From Aequorivita soesokkakensis (GTDB lineage: Bacteria; Bacteroidota; Bacteroidia; Flavobacteriales; Flavobacteriaceae), in NCBI RefSeq assembly GCF_001641085.1, contig NZ_LXIE01000028.1, positions 1 to 60,306 on the forward strand: a DNA stretch of 60,306 bases, written 5' to 3'. Below, piece by piece: positions 7,980-58,331 of this stretch. Positions within the stretch are counted from its first letter, which is position 1, and each line of letters begins with the position of its first letter. The notes under the pieces are model-generated. The model was not told the DNA's origin and ran no database searches. It saw only the letters and a list, made by a program, of their open reading frames with translations. The position numbers and the translations under genes are program-made.

Positions 7980-8011
7980 TGCTCAATACTCAATTAACAA
8001 TTTTCAATTTT
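7980..8011. repeat. Left inverted repeat of four-helix-bundle cassette 2
   Basis: TGCTCAAT (7980-7987) and CAATTTTCAATT (7998-8009) begin immediately after the paaC stop. Both words recur inverted after the small gene, at 8393-8400 and 8385-8396. The vocabulary differs from that of cassette 1. Confidence 0.75.
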
Positions 8012-8026
8012 CACTAAAAAAATATT

Positions 8027-8386
8027 ATGGAAAGAAAATTTGATTTGGAAGATAGGTTAATTGATTTTGCAATTCTTTGTATTAATCTTTTTAAGAAAAT
8101 TGAATATAATTATGCTTTGGACCATTTGTCAAAACAGCTAATAAGATCTGCTACTGGTGCAGCTTTAAATTATGGAGAGGTTCAAGGTGCAGAATCTGCG
8201 AAGGATTTTATTCATAAAATGGGAATTGTTTTAAAAGAACTAAAAGAATCGAGAGTAAATCTTAAAATTCAAAATGGCGCCAATCTTTTAAATGATATTG
8301 ATAGTGCAGAAAAAAGTTTAAAAGAATGCGAAGAACTAATCGCCATTTTCTCAAAAAGTATTCAGACAGCGAGATCAAAAAAATAA
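8027..8386 (+). CDS. Four-helix bundle protein (S23/IVP family), cassette 2
   Basis: A 119-residue protein of the same subfamily as cassettes 1 and 3, with the shared LSKQLIRSATGAALNYGEVQGAESAKDF block at about residues 41-68 and a VLKELKES motif. It is predicted all-helical and soluble. The start is ATG 8027. It separates paaC from paaD and is framed by the short inverted repeats at 7980-8011 and 8385-8404. Its function is unknown. The three paralogues in one operon differ at many positions, so they look like independent insertions of diverged members and not recent copies of one another. Confidence 0.85.
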   Translation: MERKFDLEDRLIDFAILCINLFKKIEYNYALDHLSKQLIRSATGAALNYGEVQGAESAKDFIHKMGIVLKELKESRVNLKIQNGANLLNDIDSAEKSLKECEELIAIFSKSIQTARSKK

Positions 8387-45584: not shown

Positions 45585-46541
45585 ATGAAACTCCAAACCG
45601 AAATACCGCTAAAACCCGAAGAAAATCAAATAGATTATTCCTCAAAAATACTTTTGTTGGGAAGTTGTTTTTCGGAAAATATTGGGGCGAAGTTTGAATA
45701 CTTTAAATTTCAGAATTTACAGAATCCGTTTGGGGTTATTTTCAATCCAGTTTCAATTGAAAGATTAGTTGTACGGGCGATTGAAAACAACCCTTTTTCA
45801 GAAGAAAACATCTTTGAGCATAATGGAATTTGGAAATGTTTTGAAGTACATTCCGAGCTTTCAGCTCCGAATAAAAGTGAATTTTTAAGAAATCTAAATT
45901 CAGCACTTCAAAATTTACGGGAAGCTTTATTTTCTTCAACACATATCATTATCACTTTTGGCACTTCGTGGGTTTATAGAAAAACTGAAACCAATGAAAT
46001 TGTAGCCAATTGCCATAAACTTCCGCAGCAAAATTTTCAAAAGGAATTGCTTTCCATTGAAACCATTTCGAAAAGCCTTCAAAATATTTTTAGTCGAATT
46101 TCAGAAATAAACCCAGCCGCGACAATTATAAACACCGTTTCGCCCGTGCGGCATATTAAAGATGGTTTTGTAGAAAATTCGCTCAGTAAAGCTTATTTAC
46201 TTTCGGCAATTCACCAATCTTTGTCACTTCGAGCGCAGTCGAGAAGTTATTATTATTTTCCGTCGTTTGAAATATTGATGGACGAACTTCGTGATTACCG
46301 CTTTTACGCCGAGGATTTACTTCACCCAAACAAAACCGCTATCGAAATTATTTGGCAGAAATTTTCTGAAGTGTGGATTGGTTCGGAAACAGAAACGCTA
46401 CAGAAAGAAATTGTGTCCATTCAAAATGGTTTGCTTCACAGACCTTTCAACCCGCAAAGCAAGGAACATCTACAATTTTCTGAAAAACTCCAGCAAAAAA
46501 TAACTTCGCTTAAACAACATTACCCACACATTATATTTTAA
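45585..46541 (+). CDS. GSCFA domain protein
   Basis: A 318-residue protein of the GSCFA family, named for the motif visible here as LLLGSCFSENIGAKF (residues 23-37). A conserved TFGTSWVYRKTE follows near 124. It resembles SGNH-hydrolase-like proteins, but its substrate is unknown. Residues 216-220 (R-A-Q-S-R) are encoded by an interspersed repeat (core 46231-46242), in the same frame as the copy in paaH. There is no signal peptide. Confidence 0.88.
   Translation: MKLQTEIPLKPEENQIDYSSKILLLGSCFSENIGAKFEYFKFQNLQNPFGVIFNPVSIERLVVRAIENNPFSEENIFEHNGIWKCFEVHSELSAPNKSEFLRNLNSALQNLREALFSSTHIIITFGTSWVYRKTETNEIVANCHKLPQQNFQKELLSIETISKSLQNIFSRISEINPAATIINTVSPVRHIKDGFVENSLSKAYLLSAIHQSLSLRAQSRSYYYFPSFEILMDELRDYRFYAEDLLHPNKTAIEIIWQKFSEVWIGSETETLQKEIVSIQNGLLHRPFNPQSKEHLQFSEKLQQKITSLKQHYPHIIF
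46226..46246. repeat. REP-like repeat inside the GSCFA coding sequence
   Basis: CACTTCGAGCGCAGTCGAGA with core GAGCGCAGTCGA at 46231-46242 is read in frame as L-R-A-Q-S-R. Confidence 0.8.
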
Positions 46542-46561
46542 GATTGTTGCCGAAACTTAAA

Positions 46562-46649
46562 TTGGTGCGCATCAATTTGTTGATTGGTACGCACTAAATT
46601 GATAGTTGGTACGCATCAAACCCTTAATTGTTGCGCACCAAAATAAATT
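46562..46649. repeat. Four 22-bp phased TTGGTACGCATCAA repeats
   Basis: Units start at 46562, 46584, 46606 and 46628, exactly 22 bp apart: TTGGTGCGCATCAA, TTGGTACGCACTAA, TTGGTACGCATCAA and TTGTTGCGCACCAA. The last is nearly the reverse complement of the first. Two helical turns per unit put all sites on one DNA face, as for an operator array. The array lies upstream of the response-regulator-type dyad of the DUF6252 gene. Confidence 0.8.
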
Positions 46650-46659
46650 TTCAGAAAAG

Positions 46660-46708
46660 AATACGTCAATTGCCGTATTGTCTGCCTTTTGGTTTTAGGG
46701 CAATTTTG
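46660..46708 (+). promoter_or_regulatory. Dyad A and promoter of the DUF6252-type lipoprotein gene
   Basis: The dyad AATACGTCAATTGCCGTATT at 46660-46679 has one mismatched pair. A -7-like box CAATTTTG lies at 46701-46708, and the box starts 31.5 bp after the dyad centre. The same spacing is found at sites B, C and D. Confidence 0.65.
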
Positions 46709-46761
46709 CTTCAACAATTAATCACGTATTCGCCAAGAGCGGAACACTAAACCCAAATAGT

Positions 46762-47280
46762 ATGAAAACTTTTAAAAAATCAATTTTAGTATTAATGGCA
46801 GTTGTTGCCGTAAGTTTAACTTCTTGTAAAAAAGATGATGATGGCGGCGGAGGCGGAAGTGCTGGTTCTGGAACTGTTGTTGCCAAAGTGAACGGTAATA
46901 ATTTTACCTCACTTGATATAGCTTCAACTGCTAGCCAGTCTACAGGTGGCGGAAGTACTACAATTACACTTCAAGGTTCTGATGCTTCTGGAAAAGGAAT
47001 CTTTATTATCATCAATAATTATGATGGTACAGGTACTTATGAGTTCAGCGATTCAAATGTATTTGTAACCGCTACTTATGTAGAGGCAAATGTGAACAAT
47101 CCACAAAATTCACAAACTTGGTCTGCTCCTTATCAAGGTAGTGGGGTAGTTGGGGAAGTAAAAATTTCTGAAAAAACAGATACTAAAATCAAAGGTACAT
47201 TCAACTTTATGGCTAAAAACGTAAACGGGGATCAGTCAATAAAAAATATTACGGACGGTTCTTTCGATTTAAATTTTTAA
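46762..47280 (+). CDS. DUF6252-like lipoprotein
   Basis: A 172-residue protein with a lipobox at C22 (VAVSLTSCKK) and an acidic Gly-rich linker. A beta-sandwich-like domain follows (VVAKVNGNNFTSLDIAST, TITLQGSDASGKGIFIIINN, GEVKISEKTDTKIKGTFNF). It is probably exported to the outer membrane. It is preceded by the 22-bp repeat array and dyad A and may be a highly regulated surface protein. I am fairly confident about the family and not about the function. Confidence 0.7.
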   Translation: MKTFKKSILVLMAVVAVSLTSCKKDDDGGGGGSAGSGTVVAKVNGNNFTSLDIASTASQSTGGGSTTITLQGSDASGKGIFIIINNYDGTGTYEFSDSNVFVTATYVEANVNNPQNSQTWSAPYQGSGVVGEVKISEKTDTKIKGTFNFMAKNVNGDQSIKNITDGSFDLNF

Positions 47281-47370
47281 TAGCCACACGCACTTAAGAA
47301 AATCTCTATGTTGAGGTTTTTACGTGGGCCGGGGGTGAAACGCAAGTTTTTCTTCCGGTTTTTTTTATGA

Positions 47371-47402
47371 AGTCGATGAGTTGAGAAGTCGATGGGTTGA
47401 GA
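47371..47402. repeat. 16-bp tandem repeat AGTCGATGAGTTGAGA
   Basis: Two copies (47371-47386, 47387-47402) differ at one base. It is another simple-word stretch comparable to the cassette arms. Confidence 0.7.
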
Positions 47403-47449
47403 AGTTTTGGCATCACTTTAGTTTTAGAATTTGAAACCTGAAATTTCAA

Positions 47450-47499
47450 CAATACGGCAATTGCCGTATTGTTTGCACCTTTGTTAAAAAGCATCTTTG
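47450..47499 (+). promoter_or_regulatory. Dyad B, perfect 22-bp palindrome, and promoter
   Basis: The palindrome CAATACGGCAATTGCCGTATTG (trimmed core AATACGGCAATTGCCGTATT, 47451-47470) is perfect and can be extended to 47448-47473. A -7-like box CATCTTTG lies at 47492-47499, again 31.5 bp after the dyad centre. Confidence 0.7.
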
Positions 47500-47505
47500 T
47501 ATAGG

Positions 47506-47609
47506 AAATTTAAAGTGATCTACTAACCAGATTATTTTTCAAATGCAAACGAGTTGAGGGGCGTTTGCAGTTCTGAAACCCCATGTTCAACTATGGGGTT
47601 TTTATTTTT
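47506..47609 (+). ncRNA. Putative small RNA or attenuated leader upstream of the DUF6498 gene
   Basis: Downstream of promoter B the transcript would contain a hairpin (TGCAAAC 47544-47550 / GTTTGCA 47563-47569). A terminator follows (AACCCCAT 47577-47584 / ATGGGGTT 47593-47600 and a T-run to 47609). The terminator ends 32 bases before the DUF6498 start. GTTGAGGGG (47553-47561) could pair with CCCC and TCAAC of the terminator, offering an alternative fold. The 5' end is inferred from the -7 box. Confidence 0.45.
47577..47609 (+). terminator. Terminator-like hairpin in the leader of the DUF6498 gene
   Basis: A perfect 8-bp stem AACCCCAT / ATGGGGTT with an 8-base loop is followed by TTTATTTTT. 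Confidence 0.7.
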
Positions 47610-47641
47610 AAGCCTCCAACTACTGAAATAAAATATAGACT

Positions 47642-48367
47642 ATGTGGAATGCAATCCTGATGCCAACCAAAAGCAATGCTATTTTATGGGCTAACGCGCT
47701 TTTTCTTTTCTTGCTTTTGGCATTGCATATGGCAGACCCACTTACCATTGTGTTTGCCTATTTTTTGGAAACTATCATTATTGGTGTAATTCATTTATTG
47801 AAATTATGGTTGGTAGGTAAATACGGAAATAAATCCACAGATCCCAAGAAACAGCTTACGGGCATTCCGTTGATGATTTTCTTTTGCTTCCATTATGGAA
47901 TGTTTGTGGCCATTCAATCTGTTTTTGCTTTTTCGCTTTTTGAAAGCAGTATTCCTGGTTTAGAAGATGGGTTCCACTTAATTCATAATTACACATTTAT
48001 TCTTGGTAGTGCAGGGATGCCGATTATTTTGGCTTCTATAATTGTAAATAATCTGACTTATTTCTACACCAATTTTTGGCGAAACGAAAAATATAGGGAA
48101 TATACGCCGGACGGTATTTTAATGAAACCCTATGTGCGTATTTTCATTCAGCAGTTTGTGGTTATTCTGGCTTTTTTCTTTTACATGCTTTTTAATAGCG
48201 GAATGATAGCAGCGGTGCTTTTGATACTCTTTAGGCTTTTTGTGGATTTAATAATGTTCTCTATAAAAAAGGACAGTGCAACCTTGGAAATTCTTTCGAA
48301 AAAACTTGCAAAGACTCCCGAACAATATCCAGAAATTAAAAAGCAACTACAGGAATATAGTGAGTGA
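47642..48367 (+). CDS. DUF6498-type integral membrane protein
   Basis: A 241-residue membrane protein with about six predicted segments, including NALFLFLLLALHMADPLTIV and PLMIFFCFHYGMFVAIQSVF. The IFAYFLETIIIGVIHLLKL-like segment after the first helix and the HYGMF motif fit DUF6498. Its function is unknown. It lies behind the perfect dyad B and the terminator-like leader. The next small membrane-protein gene follows after 21 bases. Confidence 0.75.
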   Translation: MWNAILMPTKSNAILWANALFLFLLLALHMADPLTIVFAYFLETIIIGVIHLLKLWLVGKYGNKSTDPKKQLTGIPLMIFFCFHYGMFVAIQSVFAFSLFESSIPGLEDGFHLIHNYTFILGSAGMPIILASIIVNNLTYFYTNFWRNEKYREYTPDGILMKPYVRIFIQQFVVILAFFFYMLFNSGMIAAVLLILFRLFVDLIMFSIKKDSATLEILSKKLAKTPEQYPEIKKQLQEYSE

Positions 48368-48388
48368 TTTTATGAAAAATAAATCTCT

Positions 48389-48649
48389 ATGAAAAATCAA
48401 ACAAAAGCACTTTTGTATAATTCCTTAGCATTGTTTTTTGGAATAATTGCACTTTTAACATCTTGGCTTTGGGCGTATTATGTCAACCTTTTTATTGCTT
48501 TCCCAAGCCTTATCGCAGCTTTTTTTCTTTGTAAGTCTGCCAATAAAGCTATGCCGGGCAACTTGTTTTCAAAAGTAAATTACGTTTTGATAGCCACATC
48601 GGTGGTAGTGGCATTTGTAACATTAATTATTTTATTGTTGAAGAATTAA
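48389..48649 (+). CDS. Small membrane protein, uncharacterised
   Basis: An 86-residue protein with three hydrophobic stretches (LALFFGIIALLTSWLWAYYV, NLFIAFPSLIAAFFLC and VLIATSVVVAFVTLIILLL). No family is recognised. It is cotranscribed with the DUF6498 gene by spacing (21 bases). Confidence 0.65.
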   Translation: MKNQTKALLYNSLALFFGIIALLTSWLWAYYVNLFIAFPSLIAAFFLCKSANKAMPGNLFSKVNYVLIATSVVVAFVTLIILLLKN

Positions 48650-48722
48650 TTTTTTTGCAAACAATAAAACAACTGTCTTATAGGCTTACATTTTTTTTAA
48701 AAATACAAATATCACCCAATCA

Positions 48723-48771
48723 AATAGGGCATTTGCCCTATATTAAAAATTTAGAAAGAAACCTATCTTTA
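48723..48771 (+). promoter_or_regulatory. Dyad C and promoter of the histidine kinase operon
   Basis: AATAGGGCATTTGCCCTATA at 48723-48742 fits the dyad consensus in 16 of 20 positions. The box TATCTTTA lies at 48764-48771, exactly 31.5 bp after the dyad centre. Confidence 0.65.
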
Positions 48772-48794
48772 AAGTTTAAATCTAGCATACCTTT

Positions 48795-49037
48795 ATGTAT
48801 TTGCCATTAATCATACTTTTAATAGTACTTGCCATTATTTTTGTGCTAATATTTTATTTTTATACTAAAAATAGAGCCATTAAGAATGCACATTCGTCAA
48901 AAATTGATAGATTGGAGCACGCTATTTTTTTAAATGGCAATCAAATAAAATTTAGAAATTCTGGATTGCAGGAGTATAGTTTTTTAAAGCACAATTTAAC
49001 AGAAGTGCTTGTAGTGCAACCAGAAATTATTCTGTAA
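48795..49037 (+). CDS. Small single-pass membrane protein upstream of the kinase
   Basis: An 80-residue protein with one N-terminal membrane helix (LPLIILLIVLAIIFVLIFYF) and a short cytoplasmic tail. The stop lies three bases before the histidine kinase ATG, so the two are cotranslated. It may be a kinase accessory protein; I recognise no family. Confidence 0.6.
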   Translation: MYLPLIILLIVLAIIFVLIFYFYTKNRAIKNAHSSKIDRLEHAIFLNGNQIKFRNSGLQEYSFLKHNLTEVLVVQPEIIL

Positions 49038-49040
49038 AAT

Positions 49041-50816
49041 ATGGTGAGATTTTTACTTCTTTTTTGTGTTTTGCTGGGCTCGGCCACTATTTATTCGCAG
49101 AATAAGCAACAAATAGATTCCATAAATAAACTTTATGTTCAAGGGCTCAATATTCCGCAAGACTCCATTGTTGCACTCTTTCAGAAAAATATAAAAGCAG
49201 CCGAAAAGATTTCTTATGAACTGGGAGTTGCGGATGGGTATTCGCAATTGGGATTGGTTTATAGTTATCAGGGCAAATATGAAGAAAGCACAAAAAGCAC
49301 AATTGAGGCTATAACTATTTATGAAAAGCTGAAGCAGACGGACAAAATTGCAGGCTATTATGCAGGTTTGGGCTATAGCATGAAATATCGCGATTTAAAG
49401 AATGCACTTTATTATATGCAAAAGGGAAAAGCAGTTGCAGAAGCCAATAAACTTGAAGAGCTGCTTAAAGATATTTACAACAATTACGGGGTTTTAAAAG
49501 AAATAAACAATGAGTTGGACAGTGCGCTATATTATTTTAATAGAGGGTTGGAAATTAAAATAAAAATTAACGACACTATAGGCATTCCCTACAGTTGGAG
49601 TAATATGGCAGGAGCTTATGGCTTGCAGGAAAATTTTTCAAAATCGAGGGAATATTTCAATAAATCACTTCAGCAACGATTGGTTTGGGCAGATTCTTTG
49701 GGAATTGCTGAGAATTACACACAATTGGGCGAGGTTTTTATGGCCGAAAAAAAATGGAACGACGCAATTCCATTTATGCATAAATCATTGCCCATTTCGC
49801 TTAAAAAGCAATATCGAAATCTTACGCAGTACAACTATAAAATGCTTTCAGATATATTCAAAAAACTGAACAATACAGATTCAGCATTGTATTATTTTGA
49901 GCAATATTCAGCAATTAAAGACAGCGTTCACAGTATAAAAGTGCAGGAAAGTATTGCTGCGCTCAATATTGAGTTTGAAACCGAAAAGAAGCAAAACGAA
50001 ATTCTGGAACAACGCGCCCAACTTGCGGAAAAGGATTTGGAAGTCCGCCGAAAAAACACTTTTATTTTTGGTAGTTTGGGTCTTGCTTTGATTTTGGGAC
50101 TATTGGGTTACTTGCTTTACAATCAGCAAAAAATGAAGAATCGACAACTTCAAAAAGAAACCGAATTGACCTCTGCTTTGGCAAAAATTGAAACCCAAAA
50201 CAAATTACAGGAACAACGTTTAAGAATTTCACGGGATTTGCACGACAACATTGGTGCGCAGCTTACTTTCATTATTTCCAGTATCGATAATTTAAAGTAT
50301 GGTTTTACGGATATAAGCGAAAAATTGGGTAATAAACTTATCGGTATCAGTAGCTTTACGCAACAGACAATCTATGAATTGCGCGATACCATTTGGGCGA
50401 TGAACAAGGAAAATATAACCTTTGAAGATCTGCAATCCCGTATTGCAAACTTTATTGAACACGCAAAAAACGCTTCCGAAAAAACTGATTTTTCGTTTAA
50501 CATTGATGAAAATGTTGATGAAACACATATTTTTTCTTCGGTGGAAGGAATGAATATTTACAGGATTATTCAAGAGGCCGTAAACAACGCTTTAAAATAT
50601 GCGTCAGCAGATGAAATTGAAGTAAATATTTCAGAAAAAGAAAACAAATACACAGTTGAAATCACAGATACCGGAATCGGCTTTGACCAAGACAGCACGG
50701 AACTTGGCAATGGATTGAACAATATGAAAAAGCGTTCCAGAGAGATTGGAGGAAACATTAAATTTGTTTCAAAAATGGGTAAGGGGACAAAAGTGGTTTT
50801 AAATTTTCCAAAATAG
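49041..50816 (+). CDS. TPR-containing sensor histidine kinase (HisKA_3 type)
   Basis: A 591-residue kinase. It has a signal peptide (FLLLFCVLLGSATIYSQN), about six tetratricopeptide repeats in the periplasm (residues ~50-300), a membrane helix near 345-366 (FIFGSLGLALILGLLGYLLY) and a coiled coil. The phosphoacceptor H401 lies in SRDLHDNIGAQLTFIISSID, and an HATPase domain follows (EAVNNALKYAS, DTGIGFDQ, GNGLNNMKKRSREIGG). It phosphorylates a NarL-type partner, surely the gene at 50929. The external signal is unknown. A terminator begins at its last base. Confidence 0.93.
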   Translation: MVRFLLLFCVLLGSATIYSQNKQQIDSINKLYVQGLNIPQDSIVALFQKNIKAAEKISYELGVADGYSQLGLVYSYQGKYEESTKSTIEAITIYEKLKQTDKIAGYYAGLGYSMKYRDLKNALYYMQKGKAVAEANKLEELLKDIYNNYGVLKEINNELDSALYYFNRGLEIKIKINDTIGIPYSWSNMAGAYGLQENFSKSREYFNKSLQQRLVWADSLGIAENYTQLGEVFMAEKKWNDAIPFMHKSLPISLKKQYRNLTQYNYKMLSDIFKKLNNTDSALYYFEQYSAIKDSVHSIKVQESIAALNIEFETEKKQNEILEQRAQLAEKDLEVRRKNTFIFGSLGLALILGLLGYLLYNQQKMKNRQLQKETELTSALAKIETQNKLQEQRLRISRDLHDNIGAQLTFIISSIDNLKYGFTDISEKLGNKLIGISSFTQQTIYELRDTIWAMNKENITFEDLQSRIANFIEHAKNASEKTDFSFNIDENVDETHIFSSVEGMNIYRIIQEAVNNALKYASADEIEVNISEKENKYTVEITDTGIGFDQDSTELGNGLNNMKKRSREIGGNIKFVSKMGKGTKVVLNFPK

Positions 50817-50848
50817 TGAGGACAAGCATACTGTCTTCACTTTTTTAT
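50816..50848 (+). terminator. Intrinsic terminator after the kinase gene
   Basis: GTGAGGACA (50816-50824) pairs with TGTCTTCAC (50832-50840) with one G-U pair and is followed by TTTTTTATTT. It separates kinase and regulator into two units. Confidence 0.8.
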
Positions 50849-50849
50849 T

Positions 50850-50898
50850 TATACGTCAATTGCCCTATTTTTTCAATAATTCATAAAAGGTATTTTTA
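50850..50898 (+). promoter_or_regulatory. Dyad D and promoter of the response regulator gene
   Basis: TATACGTCAATTGCCCTATT at 50850-50869 fits the dyad in 17 of 20 positions. The box TATTTTTA at 50891-50898 begins exactly 31.5 bp after the dyad centre; TATCTTTA at 50900 is an alternative. The start codon is at 50929. Confidence 0.6.
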
Positions 50899-50928
50899 GT
50901 ATCTTTAAAACAACTAACCGTACCAAAG

Positions 50929-51576
50929 ATGCTTAAAATTGCAATTGTTGACGACAACACTTTTCTTATAAACGCCATAAAGGAAAAACTTTCCTTTTTT
51001 GAAGATGTTTCCGTAAAGCATACTTCCTTGAACGGGAGCGAACTTCTCACAAAACTGCAAGAAAATCACAACCTCGATTTAATTTTGATGGATATTGAAA
51101 TGCCAGTTTTAAACGGTATTGAAACAACCCAAATAGTTAAGCAGAAATACCCGCACATCAAAATAATTATGCTCACCGCTTTTGACAATGACGAGCATAT
51201 TTTCAATGCGATAAAAGCTGGTGCTGACGGTTATTTGCTGAAAGAAATCAATCCAAAAGATTTATACGAAGGGATTTTGGAAACCTTGAATGGCGGTGCG
51301 GCGATGAATCCTTCCATTGCGATGAAAACCTTGAAATTGCTCAGAAATCCTATAGATATCCAAAACCCGCGCGATCAAGAAGAAATATCACTTTCCACAC
51401 GGGAAGTTGAGGTTTTGGAACAGCTAAGCAAAGGTTTGAGCTATACAGTAATTGCAGATCATCTTTTCCTTTCGCCCAGCACCGTTAGAAAACACATTGA
51501 AAACATCTACAAAAAATTGCAGGTGCACAGCAAGATTGAAGCCGTTCAAAAGGCAAGGAATCACAATATTATTTAA
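50929..51576 (+). CDS. NarL/LuxR-type response regulator
   Basis: A 215-residue regulator. The receiver domain has VDDN at 7-10, phosphoacceptor D55 in LILMDIEMP, and an IMLTAFDND block. A C-terminal LuxR-type helix-turn-helix (LSTREVEVLEQLSKGLSYTV, IADHLFLSPSTVRKHIENIY) follows. It is the partner of the preceding kinase. NarL-type regulators bind two-fold symmetric DNA, and four near-identical dyads lie upstream of this gene, the kinase operon and two neighbouring units. I infer autoregulation and local activation, as yet untested. Confidence 0.93.
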   Translation: MLKIAIVDDNTFLINAIKEKLSFFEDVSVKHTSLNGSELLTKLQENHNLDLILMDIEMPVLNGIETTQIVKQKYPHIKIIMLTAFDNDEHIFNAIKAGADGYLLKEINPKDLYEGILETLNGGAAMNPSIAMKTLKLLRNPIDIQNPRDQEEISLSTREVEVLEQLSKGLSYTVIADHLFLSPSTVRKHIENIYKKLQVHSKIEAVQKARNHNII

Positions 51577-54612: not shown

Positions 54613-54693
54613 GATTTGACGAGAGCGCCGAAGGGAAGTTTTCACTGCCTTTAGCATTTTTTATTGAGGTTGCAATCAGTCAAATCTTTCCTC
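54613..54693 (-). promoter_or_regulatory. metK: SAM-II-like riboswitch (long-loop type) in front of metK
   Basis: On the minus strand the order is GAGG, then GATTTGACTGATTGCAA, then CCTC, a spacer AATAAAAAATGCTAAAGG, and finally GTCAAATC. GAGG/CCTC form P1 (54690-54693 with 54666-54669). The P1-loop sequence GATTTGAC (54686-54679) pairs perfectly with GTCAAATC (54620-54613) as a pseudoknot. ATTGCAA and ATGCTAAAGG match the conserved SAM-II ligand site. The long loop between them fits the Bacteroidota variant described from metagenomes. Confidence 0.75.
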
Positions 54694-54827
54694 TTAATTT
54701 GTCTTGCGCAAAAGTAAAAAAATTAAATGAACCGCAATTTTATTTAAAGTTTTTTGGCGAAAAATTTGGTTATTAAATTTTTCTGACGCTATATTTGCCC
54801 TCACAAAGTTCAAAACTTTATTGAAAT

Positions 54828-54942
54828 GTTATCAAGAAAGGCCGAGGGAATAGACCCTATGACGCCTTAGCAACCCTTTCTCCGGAAAGAAGGTGCTACA
54901 TTCTACAACGATTCTGAATTTTAAGAATTGACGATAGATAAC
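54828..54942 (+). promoter_or_regulatory. SAM-I (S-box) riboswitch in front of the cystathionine gamma-synthase-type gene
   Basis: GTTATCAAGAAAGGCCGAGG opens the motif. GACCC-TATGACGCC-TTAGCAACCC and AAGGTGCTACATTCTAC follow, the typical S-box core. P1 is GTTATC (54828-54833) with GATAAC (54937-54942). About 130 bases of leader separate it from the start codon; I saw no clear terminator there, so regulation may be translational. Confidence 0.9.
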
Positions 54943-55071
54943 GACAAGACAATTTTTTCGATTCTGAAAAATTTGCTTTCATTCTTTTTAACATTTTTCT
55001 ATTGAAGTACGTCGCAAGGCGCATTTTGACTTTTGGTTTAATCTATTTATTAACTCAAAAAAATTAGAAAA

Positions 55072-57985: not shown

Positions 57986-58061
57986 TCAGTATAGCCAAAA
58001 GAAATTTTGTATTCCCAACTTTATGATGTTACTTTGTATCAGTTCATATTCATAGTTAAAA

Positions 58062-58173
58062 GTTATCAAGAAAGGCCGAGGGAATAGACCCTTTGACGCC
58101 TTAGCAACCCTTTCGCCAGAATGAAGGTGCTACATTCTATCCGTCCCGAGACTTCGGGAGCGGAATAGATAAC
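58062..58173 (+). promoter_or_regulatory. SAM-I (S-box) riboswitch in front of the metH-type gene
   Basis: GTTATCAAGAAAGGCCGAGG opens the same core as at 54828, and ACGCCTTAGCAACCC and AAGGTGCTACATTCTA follow. P1 is GTTATC (58062-58067) with GATAAC (58168-58173). The last hairpin contains CCCGAGACTTCGGG. About 160 bases of leader follow. Confidence 0.9.
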
Positions 58174-58225
58174 AACAAATAGGTTTTTCCTTCACCTTTT
58201 CTTGATATAATTTTTTTATGGCGTG

Positions 58226-58300
58226 CCCCTTCGGGTCGGCCTTTCCGCTGCAATCTTTTTTTCGTGCCTCAAAAAAAGGATTTCCGCTACAATCCCTCAC
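58226..58300. repeat. Flavobacterial intergenic repeat with TTTCCGCTRCAATC direct repeats
   Basis: TTTCCGCTGCAATC (58242-58255) and TTTCCGCTACAATC (58281-58294) flank a T-run/A-run hairpin. CCCCTTCGGG-type words precede it. It sits between the S-box and the metH start and could also serve as terminator or antiterminator for the riboswitch. Confidence 0.55.
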
Positions 58301-58331
58301 GCAAATTTGAACTTCAATTAAAAATTAGGAA

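Follow-up and report, generated by a model that had tools for sequence, protein, structure and literature searches.

The DNA analyzed in this work is a stretch of 60,306 nucleotides (nt) of Aequorivita soesokkakensis, hereafter the window, which corresponds to contig C28 (NZ_LXIE01000028.1) of the 3.19-Mb genome. It harbors a predicted two-component system, formed by a sensor kinase and a response regulator, whose genes and neighbors are preceded by copies of one inverted repeat, or dyad. All genes of the locus are encoded on the + strand. A 172-amino acid (aa) lipoprotein of the DUF6252 family (46762-47280; PF19765, E = 1.1e-07), whose lipobox LTSC was recognized by eye, is followed by a DUF6498 membrane protein (47642-48367; PF20108, E = 6.8e-45) and by an 86-aa protein (48389-48649), which is membrane-like by eye and belongs to no Pfam family. 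The same holds for an 80-aa protein, orf80 (48795-49037), which is the first of the kinase operon and is kept ahead of the kinase gene in relatives. The sensor kinase (49041-50816) is a single protein in which Pfam recognizes TPR repeats together with the HisKA_3 and HATPase_c domains. The NarL/LuxR-type regulator (50929-51576) presented a receiver domain (PF00072, E = 6.8e-25) and a C-terminal GerE helix-turn-helix (PF00196, E = 5.6e-18), both above the cut-offs, with the recognition helix SPSTVRKH, and was 97% identical to the regulator of Aequorivita antarctica.

Four dyads on the + strand fitted the 20-mer AATACGGCAATTGCCGTATT in 19, 20, 16, and 17 of 20 positions, respectively (A, 46660-46679; B, 47451-47470; C, 48723-48742; and D, 50850-50869). 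Each of them was followed on the same strand by a -7-like box (CAATTTTG at 46701-46708, CATCTTTG at 47492-47499, TATCTTTA at 48764-48771, and TATTTTTA at 50891-50898 for A to D), and the gap from dyad to box was exactly 21 nt in all four cases, the box starting 31.5 base pairs (bp) past the dyad centre. The positions, fit and spacing that an earlier note on this DNA had described were thus borne out. A study of Flavobacterium psychrophilum (PMC9723704) places the -7 consensus TAnnTTTG of that species at -12 to -5; assuming this location for the boxes, the start sites are predicted at about 46713, 47504, 48776, and 50903 and the dyads would be centred at -43.5, in agreement with the fixed spacing near -43 claimed previously. 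For a class II-like activator site, a centre at about -41.5 to -43.5 with a constant position relative to the promoter would be expected. Sites A, C, and D are the predicted operators of the lipoprotein gene, the orf80-kinase operon and the regulator gene, respectively, which they precede as the earlier note held, whereas its placement of site B directly before the DUF6498 gene did not stand, a predicted RNA with a terminator-like hairpin lying between them; B is the predicted operator of this small RNA.

A search of the whole window with up to three mismatches gave three matches to the 20-mer (A, B, and D) vs. 0.01 expected in shuffles, dyad C, with four mismatches, falling outside the search. 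At a fit of at least 14 of 20 just four places were found besides A to D, each of them with exactly 14. Words of the form YAWYTTTR occurred only 12 times in 46501-51000, the four boxes among them, so that four boxes at a single offset are hardly due to chance. No excess was obtained with a sigma-70-type promoter scan (17 vs. 18.8 in shuffles). As a separate observation, the region 46562-46642, just 5' of site A, contains three overlapping copies of a 37-nt repeat with a period of 22 bp and four TTGGTRCGCA-like words, and is possibly another operator array.

The arrangement recurred in loci of relatives. Relative loci were the best 80 of 553 encoding a relative of the regulator, and hence had been chosen by the regulator. 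The dyads fitting at least 16 of 20 positions numbered 116 and were spread over 51 of these loci; a box was found exactly 21 nt past the dyad in 95 of the 116, no other offset occurring more than six times and the upstream side reaching three at most. Target genes were counted behind 114 sites chosen by a fit of 15/20 or by the core, plus the box: the DUF6252 gene followed in 29, the regulator in 26, orf80 in 13 (two of which, L042_3599 and L043_3649, are really RNA promoters), the kinase in 5, and other frames in 41. Many of these other frames look exported from their N termini, as judged by eye. The boxes of these 114 sites began with C in 56 and with T in 46, and 68 of them departed from TAnnTTTG at the first base. 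A -33 TTG, considered as a general feature of these promoters, was rejected, as TTG appeared within 8 nt past the dyad in 35 of 114 sites only.

In the complete genome the dyad alone was noisy at up to three mismatches (80 matches vs. 48 for the reversed control). At up to one mismatch it was present in seven places, six of which precede genes with a box in register, allowing one mismatch in the combined pattern; the seventh, in contig C10, lies within a reading frame without a box in register. The pattern of dyad, gap and box with up to three mismatches gave 11 matches vs. one for the reversed control. Seven of these were accepted, namely A, B, D, C (with three mismatches) and three beyond the window; the four unaccepted ones all had three mismatches, and one was an accepted dyad read from the opposite strand. 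The three sites beyond the window precede a 298-aa protein, a Peptidase_C1/DUF4384 protein, and another large protein, the last two being read to about 480 aa, where the locus ends. The two sites of contig C30 (G000:C30:6029-6075 and 8011-8057; L125 and L126), whose boxes have no A at the second position, are near-alike operator-promoter regions 2 kb apart that precede the Peptidase_C1/DUF4384 protein and a protein without a Pfam family.

Operator and regulator were also surveyed across genomes. Among 100 genomes of the family, from 99 genera (regulator cut-off, E <= 1e-55), the strict dyad and box pattern was found in 19 (38 matches), all of them among the 28 with the regulator, and in none of the 72 without it (Fisher test, P = 5e-14, a value that ignores kinship, for a pattern derived from regulator-chosen loci). 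The reversed control pattern had no match in any of the 100. In 121 Flavobacterium genomes (regulator cut-off, E <= 1e-75) the regulator was detected in 26 and the pattern in 16, these being 14 of the 26 with the regulator vs. 2 of the 95 without it.

Where the canonical dyad was lacking, many loci contained a different 20-mer, also separated from the box by 21 nt, that retains the outer TACG...CGTA but differs in its inner bases. Helices were grouped by the residue before the T of the recognition helix, either S or A (SPST, SPAT) or G. In a count that omits nine regulators (eight from two-regulator loci and one duplicate of L094), loci with an S/A helix presented the canonical operator in 46 cases (5 also with the alternative), the alternative only in none, and neither in 8, whereas those with a G helix displayed 7 canonical, 36 alternative and 9 neither (Fisher test, P = 3e-18, uncorrected for kinship). 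No canonical site was found anywhere in the genomes of L103 and L119, with a G helix, and those of L115, L104, and L072, also with a G helix, had 1 or 2. In the Flavobacterium genomes G143, G154, and G198 two or three regulator copies stand beside differing operator classes. On the receiver-domain tree 8 changes of the helix and 9 of the operator were required, and on supported branches the operator changed in the same direction as before in 0.8 of draws. The operator appeared to follow the recognition helix, a strong correlation with weak phylogenetic independence. With regard to the kinase, the sensor halves of two relatives (L044:4018-5901 and L046:3896-5578) showed 26 and 28% identity to that of the window, their kinase halves 76 and 58%, and their regulators 94 and 88%, respectively; the sensor half may have been exchanged.

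For the sequence between the box at 47492 and the DUF6498 gene at 47642 the fold had z = -3.09, and 2 of 200 shuffles did as well. Fold and comparison predicted here a small RNA of about 105 nt on the + strand (47504-47610) with three hairpins, the last one a terminator (47575-47602). The first product of site B would be this RNA instead of DUF6498, which would be reached from B only through terminator read-through. By nucleotide search (E <= 0.01) the RNA was present in 21 of 28 Aequorivita genomes, G110 (L207) matching over the terminator alone, and where neighbors were seen in the flanks it lay between DUF6252 and DUF6498 or orf80-kinase. Its locus displayed two states. In 11 of the 21 genomes the RNA is found where a PQQ_2 frame ends (76-100% identity to the frame of L044), and in L044 the PQQ gene has its stop codon at the start of the matched RNA. 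The other ten, including that of the window, had no PQQ match in the flanks and a dyad and box directly before the RNA (stand-alone copies), as read in 20 of the 21 loci. A PQQ search of the window's genome gave no match; it had no positive control of its own, for which the flank search of the 21 loci serves in part. The RNA has its sequence and terminator in common with the 3' end of the PQQ mRNA.

A covariance model of the RNA matched behind the PQQ gene in L046, L054, and L055 and at L051, with weak matches in L058 (E = 0.0018) and L059 (E = 0.078). A hairpin loop UUGAGGAG persisted downstream of the PQQ gene in other genera (L046:3324-3432, L054:3644-3760, and L058:3836-3931), with a different stem sequence. 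Nothing reached the gathering threshold in Rfam for the window RNA (best 24.4 of 54 and 14.1 of 100 bits), and of two further Rfam scans one gave no match at E <= 1 over it and the other none at gathering. The mean pairwise identity of the ten stand-alone copies, raised by four near-identical ones, was 0.89 for the dyad, 0.62 for the gap, 0.93 for the box, and 0.81 for the RNA, vs. 0.39 for the 60 nt downstream, and the length from start to terminator was 98-102 nt in all ten. Two-sided changes with pairing kept were found in hairpin 2, at 5 pairs of a 20-sequence alignment and 3 pairs of a 10-sequence alignment; hairpin 1 and the terminator varied little across stand-alone copies. In the shuffle test the cells with two-sided changes exceeded all 500 shuffles, and the covariation score also stood out. 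The window sequence had suggested kissing loops between hairpin 2 and the terminator, but L188 and L189 have a different terminator loop and the idea was discarded.

Taking these data together, we consider it very probable that A to D are sites at which the local pair activates itself, that is, the regulator gene and the kinase operon, along with the lipoprotein and the RNA derived from the PQQ gene. From the domains we infer that the TPR-type sensor kinase (49041) phosphorylates the regulator (50929), which would then bind as a probable dimer to TANGNCA-NN-TGNCNTA, centred some 43.5 bp upstream of the start site, and act as an activator beside weak -7 boxes. Activation is preferred because the gap is fixed and the boxes are weak. 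The predicted targets would be its own gene, the kinase operon, the DUF6252 lipoprotein, the RNA of about 105 nt, and the three further sites in the genome. The RNA appears to be the remnant of a regulated PQQ-repeat gene, the frame of which was lost, with the operator-promoter now driving the old 3' untranslated region (UTR) directly; it would most likely act in trans by pairing, or else bind protein via its hairpin loops. The proposal of the earlier note, namely binding of the dyads by the regulator and control of its own gene and of the kinase, is in this way supported by sequence comparison, through the gap, the co-occurrence of operator and regulator, and the co-variation of operator and helix.

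A number of results weigh against this interpretation. The dyad was missing at 16/20 from 29 of the 80 relative loci and the strict pattern from 9 of the 28 regulator-bearing genomes of the family; site C itself misses the strict pattern, and the Flavobacterium genomes G152 and G202 have the pattern with no regulator at E <= 1e-35. Seven loci with a G helix present the canonical operator (L072, L104, L112, L115, L226, L223, and L238), and independent helix-operator pairs numbered 1 on well-supported branches and 7 on all, an underpowered count. As for the RNA, a terminator scan on its own found 4 vs. 3.5 in shuffles, and in Aequorivita capsosiphonis (L045) the RNA is kept with neither dyad nor frame before it, a state that fits ill with a strictly needed promoter. 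As many as 13 of the 20 sequences have outer pairs of hairpin 2 disrupted. With 10 copies, the number of pairs changed on both sides (4) was reached in 125 of 500 shuffles and that of pair types in 494, and with 20 copies in 19 and 212 of 500, respectively.

The regulator could bind the dyads and act as a repressor, the dyad covering the -33 region and blocking the polymerase. The dyad does end about where a -33 element would begin, some promoters may keep a -33-like TTG, and this triplet occurs in the first 8 nt past 35 of 114 dyads, vs. 16% of 8-nt windows elsewhere in the gap; however, the single fixed gap (95/116) and the non-consensus first base of the box (68/114) suit an activator better, and repression is regarded as unlikely. 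We give very little weight to the dyads being bound by a paralogue or an unrelated protein, with the local pair merely as a target. This would be in line with the further NarL-type paralogues of the genome, the nearest of which is 40% identical, and with the two Flavobacterium genomes that have the pattern and lack the regulator, but the pattern is absent from all 72 family genomes without the regulator and the operator class tracks the local helix.

Concerning the RNA at 47504-47610, it could also be a functionless, inert scar that consists of the promoter and the old 3' UTR. It plainly descends from the 3'-terminal part of the PQQ transcription unit, part of the structural support is no better than shuffles, and the mean identity is raised by four near-identical sequences among the ten stand-alone copies. 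Nevertheless, an identity of 0.81 against 0.39 downstream, the conserved dyad and box, a length held within 98-102 nt in the ten copies, and two-sided changes in more cells than in any of the 500 shuffles make this explanation rather improbable. Another explanation would be a 5' leader (attenuator) of DUF6498, not a small RNA in its own right, since in the window this gene starts about 40 nt past the terminator stem with no box between them, by eye. Yet DUF6498 stands behind the RNA in the window's genome only, of the ten with stand-alone copies (flanks of about 1.5 kb), and the same RNA is a 3' end in other genomes, so that a leader appears quite unlikely. Activation by the local pair, with a small RNA as one of its products, remains the preferred reading.

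Behind like promoters in other genera, other RNAs were found. In 10 of 26 Flavobacterium-type loci a different RNA of 89-115 nt lies after the dyad and box and before the kinase or the regulator (L100:5829-5938, L094:4078-4189, and eight further loci), with a fold z of -5.52 in one member. Its model gave strong matches (E <= 4e-12) in 4 of the 121 Flavobacterium genomes, three of them by construction, as G126, G213, and G250 hold members of the model, and only G226 being new; three further genome matches were weak (E = 0.001-0.006). G226 has no regulator at E <= 1e-75 and no strict operator, and the dyad before its RNA is altered. Over the fetched loci the ten strong matches were the model's own members, and four weaker ones (E = 0.0006-0.04; L082, L120, L223, and L224) corresponded to 3' ends of lipoprotein genes, which are DUF6252 by BLAST in L082 and L120 and by eye in L223 and L224. 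For this RNA nothing reached gathering in Rfam either (best 28.4 of 56 bits). In L064 (Dokdonia) a third, unrelated-looking RNA with a terminator lies behind such a promoter. We tentatively entertain, as the less probable case, that small RNAs have arisen at this locus repeatedly: in Aequorivita the regulator's promoter would have captured the 3' UTR of one of its target mRNAs when the reading frame was lost, and possibly the same happened again in Flavobacterium. The latter part is based on the weak RNA matches at the 3' ends of lipoprotein genes, and the whole case is slightly weakened by the three genome matches, out of four, that arise by construction.

Apart from these elements, the Rfam search located in the window, within 4 kb, a SAM-II riboswitch (54640-54699, - strand), two SAM riboswitches (54826-54944 and 58060-58175, both + strand) and a Flavo-1 RNA (58230-58307, - strand).

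Compared with known NarL/LuxR (GerE) regulators and HisKA_3 kinases, the pair is alike in its receiver and GerE domains and in a HisKA_3 kinase with TPR, of which FimS/FimR of Porphyromonas is an example, and unlike in the operator TANGNCA-NN-TGNCNTA and the set of targets. The lux box is centred at -42.5, and the 20-bp dyad found here would be similarly near -42. The titles and abstract openings of the matches listed on related topics contained neither this operator nor the regulon, those on Aequorivita small RNAs contained nothing on the window RNA, and DUF6252 occurred in none of the papers searched. RsaG is a small RNA derived from a 3' UTR, made by trimming of the full-length RNA; the uhpT mRNA from which it comes depends on HptRS, a two-component system (PMC9438474). 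The window RNA would likewise stem from the 3' end of an mRNA controlled by such a system, but here 10 of 21 genomes lack the frame and have the operator-promoter directly before the RNA. Rfp18 of F. psychrophilum, also a structured small RNA of Flavobacteriaceae, is described as widely conserved in its genus (PMC9723704), in contrast with the Flavobacterium RNA, strong in 4 of 121 genomes, a comparison based on the published description.

To our knowledge, few regulons of Flavobacteriaceae have a defined operator. For the system of A. soesokkakensis, the operator, the geometry of the promoter and the regulator are predicted to single bases, and natural variants of helix and operator are at hand. 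If the locus were indeed a repeated birthplace of small RNAs, each lineage would have used a target gene to equip its two-component system with an RNA arm. Since a single genus offers the same 3' end either as the tail of an mRNA or as a stand-alone copy, the origin of a small RNA gene would become directly testable.

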